The notes under the pieces were generated by a model. That model did not search any database, was not told where the DNA came from, and saw only the letters and a program-made list of their open reading frames with translations. A program made the translations under genes and the position numbers. 53,987 bases of DNA from Actinomycetes bacterium. GTDB taxonomy: Bacteria > Actinomycetota > Acidimicrobiia > Acidimicrobiales > Ilumatobacteraceae. Positions 3,979 to 34,380 of the stretch are shown here, in pieces. The stretch lies in contig JANYDH010000141.1 in the NCBI GenBank assembly GCA_025359865.1, forward strand, positions 1 to 53,987. Reading direction: 5' to 3'. Position 1 is the first letter of the stretch. Each line of letters begins with the position of its first letter.

Positions 3979-4983
3979 TCAGGCGTCGAAGGCATCGAAC
4001 TCGTCCGATGACTGGGCTTGATGAGGCGACTGGGTTGGATTCGGAGCTGAGGTGCGGCGACGCTTGCGGTGGCTGCGCCGCCGACGACCGGCGAGGACAG
4101 CGGTGATGAAGATCACGCAAAAACTCACCCATCCGAAAAAGGCGATACGCACAACAGCGGCGACCGTCGGCCACGCCCCACCCCGCTCGAGCGACACGAT
4201 GGACGTAGTGCCAAGGTCGACTTGGCGGCCGTCCAACGGAACCGTCCAGGTGATGGCCTGGGCCATGTCGGCATCGTTACGGGTGTCGCTGCTGTCGGCA
4301 GTCGTGTCGAGGATGGTGTCGGCTGTCGTGTCGGCTGTCGTGTCGGCTGTCGTGTCGAGGATGGTGTCGGCTGTCGTGTCGGCTGTCGTGCGAGTACTCG
4401 TGTCGCCGTCGGACTGTGAGCCGGTGGTGCTGATGATGCTGCCCGGCAGCTTCACTCGAAACGTGACCGACACAGCCTGGTCCAATGACAGATCGGCGTT
4501 GGCAATGTCGTTGGTGTAGGGCGCGCTTGCGATGAGGTTCATCAGATCGGTGTCGGCAAAGGCCCCCATCCCGCCATCCACTCGGCCCGCCCCGCTGACC
4601 GTAAAGGTGATCTGCTTCGGCGTCTTGAAGCGGGTGAACAGCACGCTCTTGAATGGTCCCTGCGGCCCATTCAATGAAGCGATGAGTGCCGTTGCCTCCT
4701 CCGGGCTGGCGAACGGATGTGAGAGCACCACGCTGAGGGTGCCTTCCTCACCGATCGTCGGCCCGTCGATCGTCCAGCCGACCCGTTGGACGTCGGAAAA
4801 TCGAAGGTCATCAACAAGACCGGGTGCCTGTTCGACCACCTCGCGATCGGCAGCGAGAGTCACGGTGACCGTCCCAGTTCCGTTCTCGCCTATCGTCACG
4901 TCGACGGTCACGTCGACGCGGCAGGAGGAAAGCGCGAGCGCCGCAGCCAGGAGAATCACGAGGGTGCGAACACGACGAATCAC
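3979..4983 (-). CDS. Putative lipoprotein with C-terminal membrane anchor and TTAD repeats
   Basis: A 334-residue protein of unknown function. The GTG start at 4983 gives a basic N-terminus (MIRRVR), a hydrophobic core and a lipobox-like LSSC, so Cys21 is the probable lipidation site. The exported part has a beta-rich region (DVTVDVTIGENGTGTVTV) resembling bacterial lipoproteins of the LppM/DUF3153 type; that assignment is tentative. A low-complexity linker of TTAD/TILD repeats follows, encoded by 12-bp tandem repeats. Near the C-terminus there is one transmembrane helix (around FFGWVSFCVIFITAVLAG), an Arg/Lys-rich stop-transfer segment and an acidic tail. It lies 57 bp downstream of clpC on the same strand and may share its transcript. 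Confidence 0.75.
   Translation of the reverse strand: MIRRVRTLVILLAAALALSSCRVDVTVDVTIGENGTGTVTVTLAADREVVEQAPGLVDDLRFSDVQRVGWTIDGPTIGEEGTLSVVLSHPFASPEEATALIASLNGPQGPFKSVLFTRFKTPKQITFTVSGAGRVDGGMGAFADTDLMNLIASAPYTNDIANADLSLDQAVSVTFRVKLPGSIISTTGSQSDGDTSTRTTADTTADTILDTTADTTADTTADTILDTTADSSDTRNDADMAQAITWTVPLDGRQVDLGTTSIVSLERGGAWPTVAAVVRIAFFGWVSFCVIFITAVLAGRRRRSHRKRRRTSAPNPTQSPHQAQSSDEFDAFDA
4285..4400. repeat. 12-bp coding tandem repeats (GTGTCGGCTGTC)
   Basis: Units close to GTGTCGGCTGTC, mixed with GTGTCGAGGATG, repeat about nine times. On the minus strand they encode the TTAD and TILD repeats of the lipoprotein linker. Multiples of three keep the frame open, so copy number can change without breaking the gene. 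Confidence 0.85.
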
Positions 4984-5040
4984 AGCACCCCGATTGTGTC
5001 ACCTGTGGGCTCAAACGCCGGGCTTTGCGAGACCCGATGG

Positions 5041-7602
<2,562 letters not shown>

Positions 7603-31670: not shown

Positions 31671-31740
31671 GCAGTGGTCAGTGAGCAGTGAGCAGTGGTC
31701 AGTGAGCAGTGGTCAGTGAGCAGCGGTCAGTGAGCAGCGG
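31671..31740. repeat. 14-bp tandem repeats between convergent genes
   Basis: The unit GCAGTGGTCAGTGA occurs four times, with one 7-bp half unit after the first copy and a partial copy at the end. The repeat spans the end of the nuoN intergenic gap and runs into the minus-strand PuuD-like gene, so its stop codon and last codons are repeat sequence. Confidence 0.9.
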
Positions 31741-32434
31741 CGCGTTGGACGAAGGTGTCGAAGATCTTCTGCTGGGGCGGCTCGACCGAGGTGGTGTCCT
31801 CCGGGTGCCATTGCAGACCAACGATCCACGTCGCTTCAGACAGTTGCACGGCTTCGATCAGCCCATCGTGGTCAAAACCGATCGGTTCGATGCCGTCGCC
31901 AAGCCGTCCCAGACCCTGATGGTGGACCGAGTAGCAGTGGTGGAGTTCGGTGGTGCCGGTTGCCTCGCTGAGTAGCGAGCCGGGCTCGAGTCGTACCGGG
32001 TGTTCGCACATCCAGTGGCCCGCAGTTTGGAGGTCCTGGATGAGTGTGCCGCCGCGGGCCACATTGAGCACCTGCATGCCCCGGCAGATCGCCAGTACCG
32101 GCATGTCGCGGCCGATGGCCGCTTCGATGAGCGCCAGATCGAACTCGTCGTGCAGGCCGAGCATGCCGTACAACGCGTCGGTCTCGGCGCGTTCGCCATA
32201 CCGGTAGGGCTCGACGTCGCCGCCGCCGGGTAGGAGCAGGCCGTCGAGCTTGTCGAGATAGCGGTCGACCATCCGGGGCGCAGTGGCAAGCGGCGGCAGC
32301 AGCACCGGCAAACCGCCGGAGTGGGCGATGGCCCGGCTGTACGGCTGGCTGCTGGAGAAAGCATCGCGGCGACCCTCGTCGGAGAACGACAGCACACGAC
32401 CACAGATGCCGATCAGCGGTGGTTGCGAGGTCAT
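31727..32434 (-). CDS. PuuD-like gamma-glutamyl hydrolase (class I glutamine amidotransferase fold), copy A
   Basis: A 235-residue peptidase C26 family protein, predicted to hydrolyse gamma-glutamyl amides such as gamma-glutamyl-GABA. The catalytic Cys117 is in AICRGMQVLNV; His210 and Glu212 are in QWHPED. The ATG at 32434 overlaps the stop of copy B as ATGA, so the pair is an operon with B first. The C-terminal residues (RAAAH) are encoded inside a tandem repeat. Substrate specificity cannot be read from the sequence. Confidence 0.88.
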   Translation of the reverse strand: MTSQPPLIGICGRVLSFSDEGRRDAFSSSQPYSRAIAHSGGLPVLLPPLATAPRMVDRYLDKLDGLLLPGGGDVEPYRYGERAETDALYGMLGLHDEFDLALIEAAIGRDMPVLAICRGMQVLNVARGGTLIQDLQTAGHWMCEHPVRLEPGSLLSEATGTTELHHCYSVHHQGLGRLGDGIEPIGFDHDGLIEAVQLSEATWIVGLQWHPEDTTSVEPPQQKIFDTFVQRAAAH

Positions 32435-33135
32435 CGCGCCTGCCGCACCAACTCGTCGAACAGGGCCTGTTGCTGACCGTCGTCGCCAGCTGAATCCTCG
32501 GGGTGCCATTGCACCGCCACCGCCCAGCGGGCTGCATCGACCTCGGCCGCTTCGGGCATCCCGTCGGTGCCCGTACCGACTAGGCTGAGTCCATCGCCCA
32601 GGCGTCCGACGGACTGATGATGAACGCTATGGCATCGCAATGCCGTCACATCGCCGATGGCGGCAGCAATGCGACTGCCGGGCTGCAACTCGACGGTGTG
32701 GTACTGGAACCAGTGGTCCTCGCGGTCGATGTCTTGCACCAGGCTGCCACCGAGCGCCACATTGAGCACCTGCATGCCGCGACACACCGCCAGCAGCGGA
32801 AGATCGGCGGCGAGCGCGGCGCGGACCACCGCCAACTCCACGTCATCGTGTTCTTCCACGATGCCGTACACCTTTTCCGATGACGGCGTTTCGCCGTAGC
32901 GGCGAGGGTCGACGTCGCCGCCACCGTGCAAGACCAACGCATCGACACGCTCGATGAGCTGATCGATGCGATCCGCGAACGCTGGGATCGGTGGCAGCAT
33001 CAACGGTATGCCCCCTGCGCGTTCGACTGCCTTGAAATAGCCCTGGCCCGCGGCGAACGCTGCGCCCCTCACGCTCTTGGCCTCCGAGCTCAGCCGACCC
33101 ACAATGAGAACAATAGGAGCGCGAGGTGCAGTCAT
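32431..33135 (-). CDS. PuuD-like gamma-glutamyl hydrolase (class I glutamine amidotransferase fold), copy B
   Basis: A 234-residue peptidase C26 family protein, clearly a paralogue of the next gene. The catalytic Cys118 is in AVCRGMQVLNVALGG, with His211 and Glu213 in QWHPED. I chose ATG 33135, which gives MTAPRAPIVLIVG; the frame stays open upstream into repeat sequence, and I regard that part as non-coding. No clear ribosome site is visible. Together with the amino-acid permease further along, a role in polyamine, GABA or gamma-glutamyl compound use is possible but inferred. Confidence 0.88.
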   Translation of the reverse strand: MTAPRAPIVLIVGRLSSEAKSVRGAAFAAGQGYFKAVERAGGIPLMLPPIPAFADRIDQLIERVDALVLHGGGDVDPRRYGETPSSEKVYGIVEEHDDVELAVVRAALAADLPLLAVCRGMQVLNVALGGSLVQDIDREDHWFQYHTVELQPGSRIAAAIGDVTALRCHSVHHQSVGRLGDGLSLVGTGTDGMPEAAEVDAARWAVAVQWHPEDSAGDDGQQQALFDELVRQAR

Positions 33136-33193
33136 CGGCACAGTCTGTCGCCGCCGCCGACGTTTCCCCACCACCGACGTTCCCCCACCCACC

Positions 33194-33283
33194 AAGTCGC
33201 GTCGACTTATCCTGACCGACTCGATCGGGCCCAAGTCGCGTCGACCTACCGGTCCTCAGCGACGATAAGTCGACGCGACGAGC
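33194..33283. repeat. Palindromic repeat family, copies at the 3' side of the DUF559 gene
   Basis: A half unit AAGTCGCGTCGACTTATC (33194-33211) is followed 39 bases later by a complete unit (33233-33281). The complete unit consists of arms AAGTCGCGTCGAC and GTCGACGCGAC in inverted orientation around a 24-base centre that contains TCAGCGACGATAA. The right arm and part of the centre encode the last residues and stop codon of the minus-strand DUF559 gene. The same unit recurs at 34197-34364. Confidence 0.9.
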
Positions 33284-34158
33284 GCCCGGCGGACCTGGTC
33301 GACCACTCGAGCCGGGTGGTTGCACTGGCGAGCCGTGAAGTTGAGGATCTTCCAACCGGCGATCTCGAGCTCGTTGCGGCGTAACCGGTCGCCATCGAAT
33401 GCTGCGCTGGAGCGAAGATGAACGCCGTACCCGTCCATCTCGAGGCCGACGCGCGCATCGGGGTACGACCAGTCGAGTTCGAACGTGCGGCCTGATTGAG
33501 TGGTGACGAGAACGTGAAGGATGGGAGCAATGCCCGCGCGGATGAGGATCTGCCCGAGCCGGGCCTCTGCGACGCTGTCCGCGCCTTCAATCACGTCGGA
33601 GAGATGTCGCTGGAGGCGGTGGGCACCACGATGGTTTCCAGCTCGATTGAGTGACAGGTCAAGATCCTCCAAGCGAAGCAGCCGCTTCGCCATCCATTCC
33701 TGCGCATAGCGGGCGACGAGCTCTGGTGACATCACCGCCGCCGAGTCGATCAGCGTCCGGGCGGGCGAAGTTGTCCACACGCCCGTGTGTAGTTGCATGT
33801 CCGGCCCACCCACGACCCGGCTGCGGTGCACGACGATTCCGTCACGAAGCGGAAGGGCGAGCGAGCGGTGCGTTACCTCGACGAGTTGGCAGTCGAAGCC
33901 GTACACGCCATGACGGGCCAACGCTGATCGGTGCGACAAGACGCCTGCCGGGCCTACGGCCAGCAAGGCGGCGCGGATTCGCTGTTCCAACGTGATGGGT
34001 GCCGCCGCGTGGCGATAGACGCCCCGGTGAACGCGAATCAGATCGCCGCGCGCCTCCATTCCGGCGAGGGCAGACTGGGTGATCCCGAGCCTGCGTGCAG
34101 CAGAGAAACTCACCAAGCCATGCTCGGCGGACAAGAAGGCAGCGAAATTCGGATCCAT
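33256..34158 (-). CDS. AbiEi-like winged-helix / DUF559 (Vsr-like) nuclease-domain protein
   Basis: A 300-residue protein. The N-terminal 60 residues look like the AbiEi-type winged helix (HGLVSFSAARRLGITQSAL and IRVHRGVYRH), as found in type IV toxin-antitoxin regulators. The C-terminal 110 residues match DUF559, a PD-(D/E)XK/Vsr-like endonuclease fold, with FELDWSYPD, GLEMDGYGVH, a following D-x2-R, and GWKILNFTARQ; the likely catalytic acidic residues are intact. No AbiEii-type toxin is adjacent. The gene is flanked on both sides by one palindromic repeat family, and its final residues VASTYRR and stop are encoded by a repeat unit. DNA binding or cleavage is inferred; a link to the repeats is a hypothesis. 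Confidence 0.82.
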   Translation of the reverse strand: MDPNFAAFLSAEHGLVSFSAARRLGITQSALAGMEARGDLIRVHRGVYRHAAAPITLEQRIRAALLAVGPAGVLSHRSALARHGVYGFDCQLVEVTHRSLALPLRDGIVVHRSRVVGGPDMQLHTGVWTTSPARTLIDSAAVMSPELVARYAQEWMAKRLLRLEDLDLSLNRAGNHRGAHRLQRHLSDVIEGADSVAEARLGQILIRAGIAPILHVLVTTQSGRTFELDWSYPDARVGLEMDGYGVHLRSSAAFDGDRLRRNELEIAGWKILNFTARQCNHPARVVDQVRRALVASTYRR

Positions 34159-34196
34159 GCCAAGATGAGGGACACCGAACTCCCCGAAGTGGAAGT

Positions 34197-34380
34197 CTCC
34201 GCGTCGAGCTACCCGTTGTCAGCGACGATAAGTCGACGCGACGGTTGAGGCGAGGAGAGTCGCGTCGAGATACCGGTCGTCAGCGACGACAAGTCGACGC
34301 GACTGTTGAGTGGGGAGAGTCGCGCCGAGATACCTGTTGTCACCGACGACAAGTCGACGCGACTGTTGACGGGGGTGGGG
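34197..34380. repeat. Three tandem ~60-bp palindromic repeat units upstream of the DUF559 gene
   Basis: Three units of 60-61 bp start at 34201, 34262 and 34322. Each contains inverted arms (CGCGTCGAG or AGTCGCGTCGAG, and AAGTCGACGCGACT) around TACC-GT-GTCAGCGACGA, followed by GTTGAG and a GGGGAGAG-like spacer. The stretch TCAGCGACGATAAGTCGACG and its continuation (34219-34243) is identical over 25 bases to 33256-33280, which is the coding end of the DUF559 gene. No spacers of CRISPR type are present. Confidence 0.9.

Follow-up and report, generated by a model that had tools for sequence, protein, structure and literature searches.

Palindromes bracketing AbiEi-Vsr/DUF559 nuclease genes of Actinobacteria: a probable enzyme-and-repeat system

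The window, that is, the whole stretch of 53,987 nucleotides that was analysed, carries on its minus strand a gene (33256-34158) for an AbiEi-Vsr/DUF559 nuclease of 300 aa, around which units of one palindromic family are grouped. On the 3' side of the gene lie one complete unit (unit 1, 33233-33280, core 33235-33279) and a half unit (33194-33211; direct repeat D3, inverted repeats I4/I5), which consists of one arm with a degenerate inner part. The 5' side holds three complete units: unit 2 (34196-34243), whose left arm is partly decayed, unit 3 (34257-34304) and unit 4 (34317-34364). All of these features read on the plus strand, and the four complete units share a single orientation and align without gaps, each with a 45-bp core. 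When folded as single-stranded DNA, the units reached z-scores between -1.7 and -4.1 relative to shuffled sequences (-2.9, -1.7, -4.1 and -2.8 for units 1 to 4). Unit 1 overlaps the final 7 codons and the stop codon of the nuclease gene. In two close relatives (loci L081 and L082) the protein has nearly the same end point but other residues there, indicating that the tail of the window nuclease is encoded by the repeat. Nine matches to the arm with at most 2 mismatches were found in the window, compared to 3.9 expected, and nine were reached in 2 of 100 shuffles. A PWM scan at a score of 18 revealed no unit in the window beyond the known ones. The statement of the earlier note that complete units were not noticed elsewhere in the window therefore holds, but it does not extend to the genome, in which copies are scattered.

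The earlier note had read the gene as AbiEi/DUF559 nuclease-like and its product as a Vsr-like DUF559 protein with a DNA-binding winged helix. The AbiEi-like part covers residues 11-181 (33616-34128, minus strand) and was recognized by PADLOC (AbiEi, 2.3e-28). In Pfam, AbiEi_4 matched with 7e-8, while the matches to MTES_1575 (9.5e-5) and DUF559 (0.046) were both below the cut-off. An AlphaFold2 model built from 70 sequences had a mean pLDDT of 93.5. Its top Foldseek match was the AbiEi antitoxin 6y8q (5.4e-7, 199 columns), followed by Rv2827c and then by the catalytic domain of I-Bth0305I (3r3p; target TM 0.76, 1.4e-3). About residues 195-295 (33274-33576, minus strand) form a nuclease domain of the Vsr / I-Bth0305I type, with sequence-profile matches to 3hrl (5e-10, residues 192-295), 1cw0 (4e-4, residues 191-248) and 3r3p (6e-4, residues 195-289); the Vsr structure 1vsr was matched as well. 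Residues conserved at 90% or more among 70 proteins include S195, E198, D229, E240, H247, D257 and R260; conserved residues of the catalytic type are present. The gene is flanked by a gene for a PALP/ACT enzyme, which we read as ilvA-like, and by two Peptidase_C26 genes. The latter, a tandem pair of glutamine amidotransferase-like genes (31727-33144), adjoin the cassette. No AbiEii-like toxin gene was present among the two neighbours of the window gene.

The window comes from a 4.99-Mb assembly that is 96.6% complete (G000). In this genome, the 10-mer arm GTCGCGTCGA occurs in 253 exact copies, compared to 17 for the reversed control, which places the reported arrangement of four complete units and a half unit around the nuclease gene far above chance. 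When the two-armed pattern was searched with a free gap of 20-30 bp, it was found at 12 places, all exactly 45 bp long, and the control gave none. The centres of these 12 exact units differ at constant length. In stretches read around arm matches and AbiEi genes, a part of the genome totalling 328,882 bases, we counted 60 window-type units at 44 sites. Several contigs (C6, C11, C46, C72, C83, C93 and C95) end in or near units, so that this count is probably too low. According to a simple gene caller, 56 of the 60 units are intergenic, and the genes next to them are arranged convergently, divergently or co-directionally. Units that are close neighbours always share their orientation (16/16), with a spacing of 60, 61 or 72 bp. 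The invariance of the arms in this family is partly a consequence of how the units were found. Columns 11/35 pair in 16 of 28 units and columns 12/34 in 15 of 28, compared to 14.9 and 14.8 expected for independent columns; a folded form of the unit is thus not supported by covariation. A reading of the units as terminators only was abandoned in view of the mixed gene orientation and the matched pairs described below.

More than half of the window-type units (32/60, assigned by their centre and not by inspection of each element) have a type of centre that was located within a MITE-like element at the loci compared. This element (L106:7787-8398, L002:1299-1705, L104:12187-12590, and L012 in the own genome) is about 0.5-0.6 kb long, has terminal inverted repeats (TTTGGCGTTGGGCTGTC...) and is present in many of the loci compared. 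Within it lies a single variant unit or a pair at a spacing of 72 bp, and the element can account for part of the spread of the window-type unit.

The earlier note had asked whether copies of the unit cluster beside DUF559 genes, and this was not the case. The unit is dispersed in its own genome, where the surroundings of seven further AbiEi/DUF559 genes, as far as they were read, do not contain it. Sixty relatives lack the exact unit, and in a sample of the phylum it matched in 3 of 396 genomes, the own genome included; the other two had one match each, of 50 and 44 bp. An exact arm was absent from the vicinity of the gene at 33 homologue loci; at L071, one lies about 0.7 kb from the gene. 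With neither unit nor exact arm at these genes, the link between nuclease and unit first looked coincidental, and the data from the own genome, taken by themselves, would refute the link suggested in the earlier note. This view was overturned by scans for inverted repeats around the homologues, which revealed that inverted repeats adjoin most of them. The nearest homologue (L081, 47% identical) is bracketed by a palindrome as well, but by a different one.

To compare the two sides of each gene, the 400 bp before it were aligned with the 300 bp after it, and the best local alignment in either orientation was scored. The threshold, 17.0, is the 99% point of a null made of 1500 flank pairs mismatched across genomes of the first sample; this null contains sister species sharing a palindrome and reaches a maximum of 44.0. 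In relatives and the own genome, 112 AbiEi-DUF559 loci were compared, after 3 of 115 had been dropped for a short flank or a short protein, and at 72 of them the flanks matched above this threshold. In a second sample from another class, that of G184, 50 of 70 loci exceeded 17.0 (none were dropped), as did 20 of 1500 mismatched pairs; at the 99% point of this sample, 17.5, 48 of 70 loci remained. Both samples consist of high-scoring matches rather than random draws, and the second combines 30 loci from the search with 40 selected from its results, with one or two for most genomes. In the second class, the nuclease family was matched in 132 of 148 genomes, with a maximum of 17 matches per genome. 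At 68 of 112 and 44 of 70 loci, the matched pair went along with an inverted repeat on one or both sides of the gene. At 40 of 112 and 20 of 70 loci no pair scored above 17.0, and some of these have a strong one-sided palindrome.

No matched pair was detected around control genes, neither at 45 other genes of the window, as called by a simple gene caller, nor at 20 ilvA-like loci. One-sided hairpins were present at 6 of these 20 loci, indicating that the signal is the matched pair and not the hairpin. In an earlier ilvA-like control, a one-sided hairpin with a score of at least 11 was found at 7 of 23 loci, compared to 19 of 30 in the nuclease family. Both ilvA-like sets (23, then 20 loci) were drawn from 30, own included, with short or cut loci omitted. 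The bracketing repeat is usually an imperfect palindrome of 36-66 nt. Its 3' copy begins within 10 bp of the stop codon in 47 of 72 and 32 of 50 cases, and the 5' match usually ends 43-193 bp ahead of the start (10-90% range, both samples), a distance that is approximate since the ATG or GTG nearest the match was taken as the gene start. The bracket in the window scored only 17.5 in this test, as unit 1 overlaps the gene end, and 21.5 when pieces of the flanks were compared.

The palindrome is specific to the gene and not to the genome, since mismatched pairs of paralogues from the same genome rarely exceeded 17 (7/318 in the first sample, 1/26 in the second). In the genome of the window, the C11 paralogue lies between two copies of a palindrome of its own, the flanks of those at C119 and C217 match above the threshold, and the paralogue at C152 has an inverted repeat on a single side. 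None of the three AbiEi genes of this genome that lack the nuclease part is flanked by an inverted repeat at a score of 9. The association between nuclease genes and adjacent palindromes proposed in the earlier note is thus absent when the same unit is looked for at other DUF559 genes, and strong when each gene is compared with a matching pair of its own. In this recast form, the note's picture of a nuclease gene between palindromes, as in REP/RAYT, applies to most of the family members tested. Similar arms also recur: six loci in five genomes (L238, L206, L074, L075, L239 and L215) have palindromes whose arms are of the TGGGCGCG or CGCGCCCA type, perhaps a specificity preferred by one branch of these nucleases.

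We searched for 13 such palindromes in their nine genomes, scoring up to 40 first-look candidates per genome, so that all counts are lower bounds. Copies away from the gene were found for at least 10 of the 13. Scattered places numbered at least 27 in G022, at least 32 in the genome of the window for the C11 palindrome (besides those of the window's own), at least 7 in G002, at least 5 in G039 and at least 5 for one of the three palindromes of G038; the remaining five palindromes with scattered copies had from at least 1 to at least 3 places each. Among the matches listed, the palindromes of L065 (G016), L249 (G038) and L222 (G047) were found only at the gene, and no palindrome was found when paired with a foreign genome. 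Six scattered sites were read in G002, and each contains two units, 50-52 bp apart, one of them degenerate. By eye, doublets of a 41-nt palindrome lie soon after stop codons in loci of G002 and the closely related G001 (L266-L276). The units of these two genomes have one length in 25 of 26 cases. Near-perfect hairpins occur among other families. In this palindrome, columns 9/33 can pair in the standard way in no more than 4 of 25 units, and the mismatch lends it a direction.

Close relatives allowed us to follow the bracket over shorter distances. At L081 and L082, loci of two species, the nuclease gene occupies the same slot (upstream DNA 92% and downstream DNA 83% identical). Within each locus the two sides of the bracket match (22.0 and 27.0), but between the two loci the score drops to background (9.0-11.5), indicating that the bracket was rewritten on either side of a gene that kept its position. 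L082 and L083 have a common palindrome (24.5). The window locus and L084 adjoin the same Peptidase_C26 gene (61% identical). In L084, the same slot holds an apparently broken copy of the nuclease (4666-5285, genome G024), in which only a 106-aa frame was found. No strong palindrome pair was seen there, and L084 is a possible case of units decaying after loss of the gene. Across loci, the similarity of palindromes correlates weakly with that of the proteins (Mantel r 0.18, reached in 0 of 2000 permutations), and below 50% protein identity r is 0.05. This fits fast rewriting without proving it.

The closely related species G001 and G002 (90-92% DNA identity in two loci) were compared in search of a site that is empty in one of them. 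Six sites were tried, of which one ran off a contig end and one had a flank without a good match. The four comparable sites were all occupied in both species; L271 has two units and L273 one, and for L269/L275 only the left flank aligns well. The idea of a repeat-spreading or repeat-maintaining system, put forward in the earlier note, gained nothing from this comparison, in which no insertion was caught.

Taken together, we consider it probable that the window locus is a member of a widespread actinobacterial enzyme-and-repeat system, in which a nuclease gene has a private palindrome bracket and often scattered copies of it. Counting against this reading are the loci without a matched pair, the palindromes listed only at their gene, the weak correlation of palindrome with protein similarity, the MITE-like element as another vehicle of spread, the low score of the window's own bracket and the occupied sites in both G001 and G002. 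With its AbiEi winged helix, the protein, probably a dimer, would read the conserved outer arm at either end of its own palindrome, and the nuclease would lie over the central segment. The window unit, with its conserved arms, constant length and variable centre, fits a dimer that reads the outer arms and works at the centre, and so does the fixed unit length of the second family (G001/G002). AbiEi proteins are described as binding inverted repeats in promoters (PMC7319586), and the dimer of I-Bth0305I as having a target of nearly 60 bp (PMC3943268). By binding the 5' copies, the protein might regulate its own gene. Rare cutting or nicking at units could trigger repair in which one site serves as the template for another; such copying would keep both sides of the bracket alike and seed or maintain the scattered copies. 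As free cutting at more than 100 chromosomal sites would be lethal, nicking, repression or protection must be assumed. Whether these genes amount to a new repeat-spreading class is a more tentative proposal, to which we give somewhat less than an even chance: AbiEi-fused homing-type nucleases, each copying a private and rapidly re-specified palindrome to the two flanks of its gene and to other places in the genome, with several pairs per genome and throughout the phylum.

The control of the nuclease gene by its own product could also be the whole function of the palindromes. The 5' copies would then be operators and the 3' copies terminators or insulators, bound by the AbiEi winged helix, and the scattered copies would be a regulon or would have spread otherwise, with no spreading function of the nuclease. 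The binding of AbiEi antitoxins to inverted repeats of promoters (PMC7319586) agrees with this, as does the usual position of the matches, 43-193 bp before the start and at the stop. However, operators need neither an identical downstream repeat nor tens of copies among genes of mixed orientation, and matched pairs were absent from control genes (0/20 ilvA-like loci) although one-sided hairpins were present at 6 of the 20. We therefore regard pure autoregulation as unlikely.

Lower still we place a homing-type selfish gene that lodged in pre-existing host palindromes, its target, so that the bracket is merely an insertion site and the repeats spread by other means. The match of the nuclease domain to the homing endonuclease I-Bth0305I speaks for it, and a palindrome length of 36-66 nt is comparable to that of the long dimeric target of this enzyme (PMC3943268). 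However, the slot is kept, both at L081/L082 and beside the Peptidase_C26 gene that the window locus has in common with L084 and its broken copy, and simple insertion would not lead one to expect the two flanks to be replaced in step around a gene that has not moved. A defence or toxin module, in which the AbiEi-nuclease fusion acts on invaders or on the cell and the palindromes are protective or sensing sites, is very improbable: PADLOC AbiEi models do match residues 11-181, but the neighbours are PALP/ACT and Peptidase_C26 genes and not AbiEii-like, and several paralogues per genome, each with private repeats, would be unusual for defence genes. Mere coincidence, with ordinary terminators or insertion hot spots placing hairpins around any small gene, can practically be dismissed, since single hairpins are indeed common in the intergenic DNA of the genomes studied (6/20 ilvA-like loci), but matched pairs were found at 122 of 182 loci of the two samples and at 0 of 65 control genes, which already contradicts it.

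The preferred reading, a nuclease paired with its own palindrome, can be set beside several known systems. Scattered palindromes are common in bacterial genomes, and to our knowledge the RAYT transposase is the only known dedicated enzyme for them. The tandem-doublet form known from REPINs resembles the scattered doublets of G002. As in the REPtron of REP and RAYT (TnpAREP; PMC8266576, PMC3733652), the gene is bordered by palindromes of one family; the palindromes are scattered in intergenic DNA and usually imperfect, with near-perfect hairpins in some families, and enzyme and repeat are apparently paired. In contrast, an AbiEi part and a Vsr-type nuclease are found here instead of an HUH Y1 transposase, and one genome can hold several such genes, each with a palindrome of its own. 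No match to Y1_Tnp (PF01797) was found in the 96.6% complete genome of the window, and a RAYT-driven spread of its unit was rejected on this ground; on reading the 15 bp beside each window-type unit, no GTAG or CGTC tag was seen in this family. The layout is thus that of a REPtron, but the enzyme and, in the window family, the missing tag set the system apart. The CGTC-tagged REPs are likewise short scattered palindromes; they are reported from five phyla, with Actinobacteria not among them, and without a dedicated transposase (PMC3733652), whereas here there is a candidate enzyme for each palindrome. Searches of the open-licence PMC literature yielded no account of DUF559/AbiEi nucleases with palindromes, and the system is apparently undescribed, although a description in a subscription journal is possible.

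The two parts of the protein have relatives of their own. With I-Bth0305I, an EDxHD homing endonuclease, the nuclease shares a homologous catalytic domain (3r3p) and plausibly a long target with dyad symmetry, but it carries an AbiEi part and has copies of the repeat on both sides. The AbiEi of type IV toxin-antitoxin systems resembles it in residues 11-181, with 6y8q as the best fold match, and is described as binding inverted repeats (PMC7319586); the part seen here is fused to a nuclease and has no toxin partner next door. The Vsr nuclease of very-short-patch repair is homologous to the nuclease domain (1cw0, 1vsr), and differs in that the enzymes described here have an AbiEi part and paired palindromes. 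If a nuclease family unrelated to the RAYT transposases is indeed bracketed by its own palindromes, the pairing of enzyme and repeat arose more than once, and the family offers a ready set of natural pairs of protein and DNA specificity as well as a direct way to test the function of such repeats.
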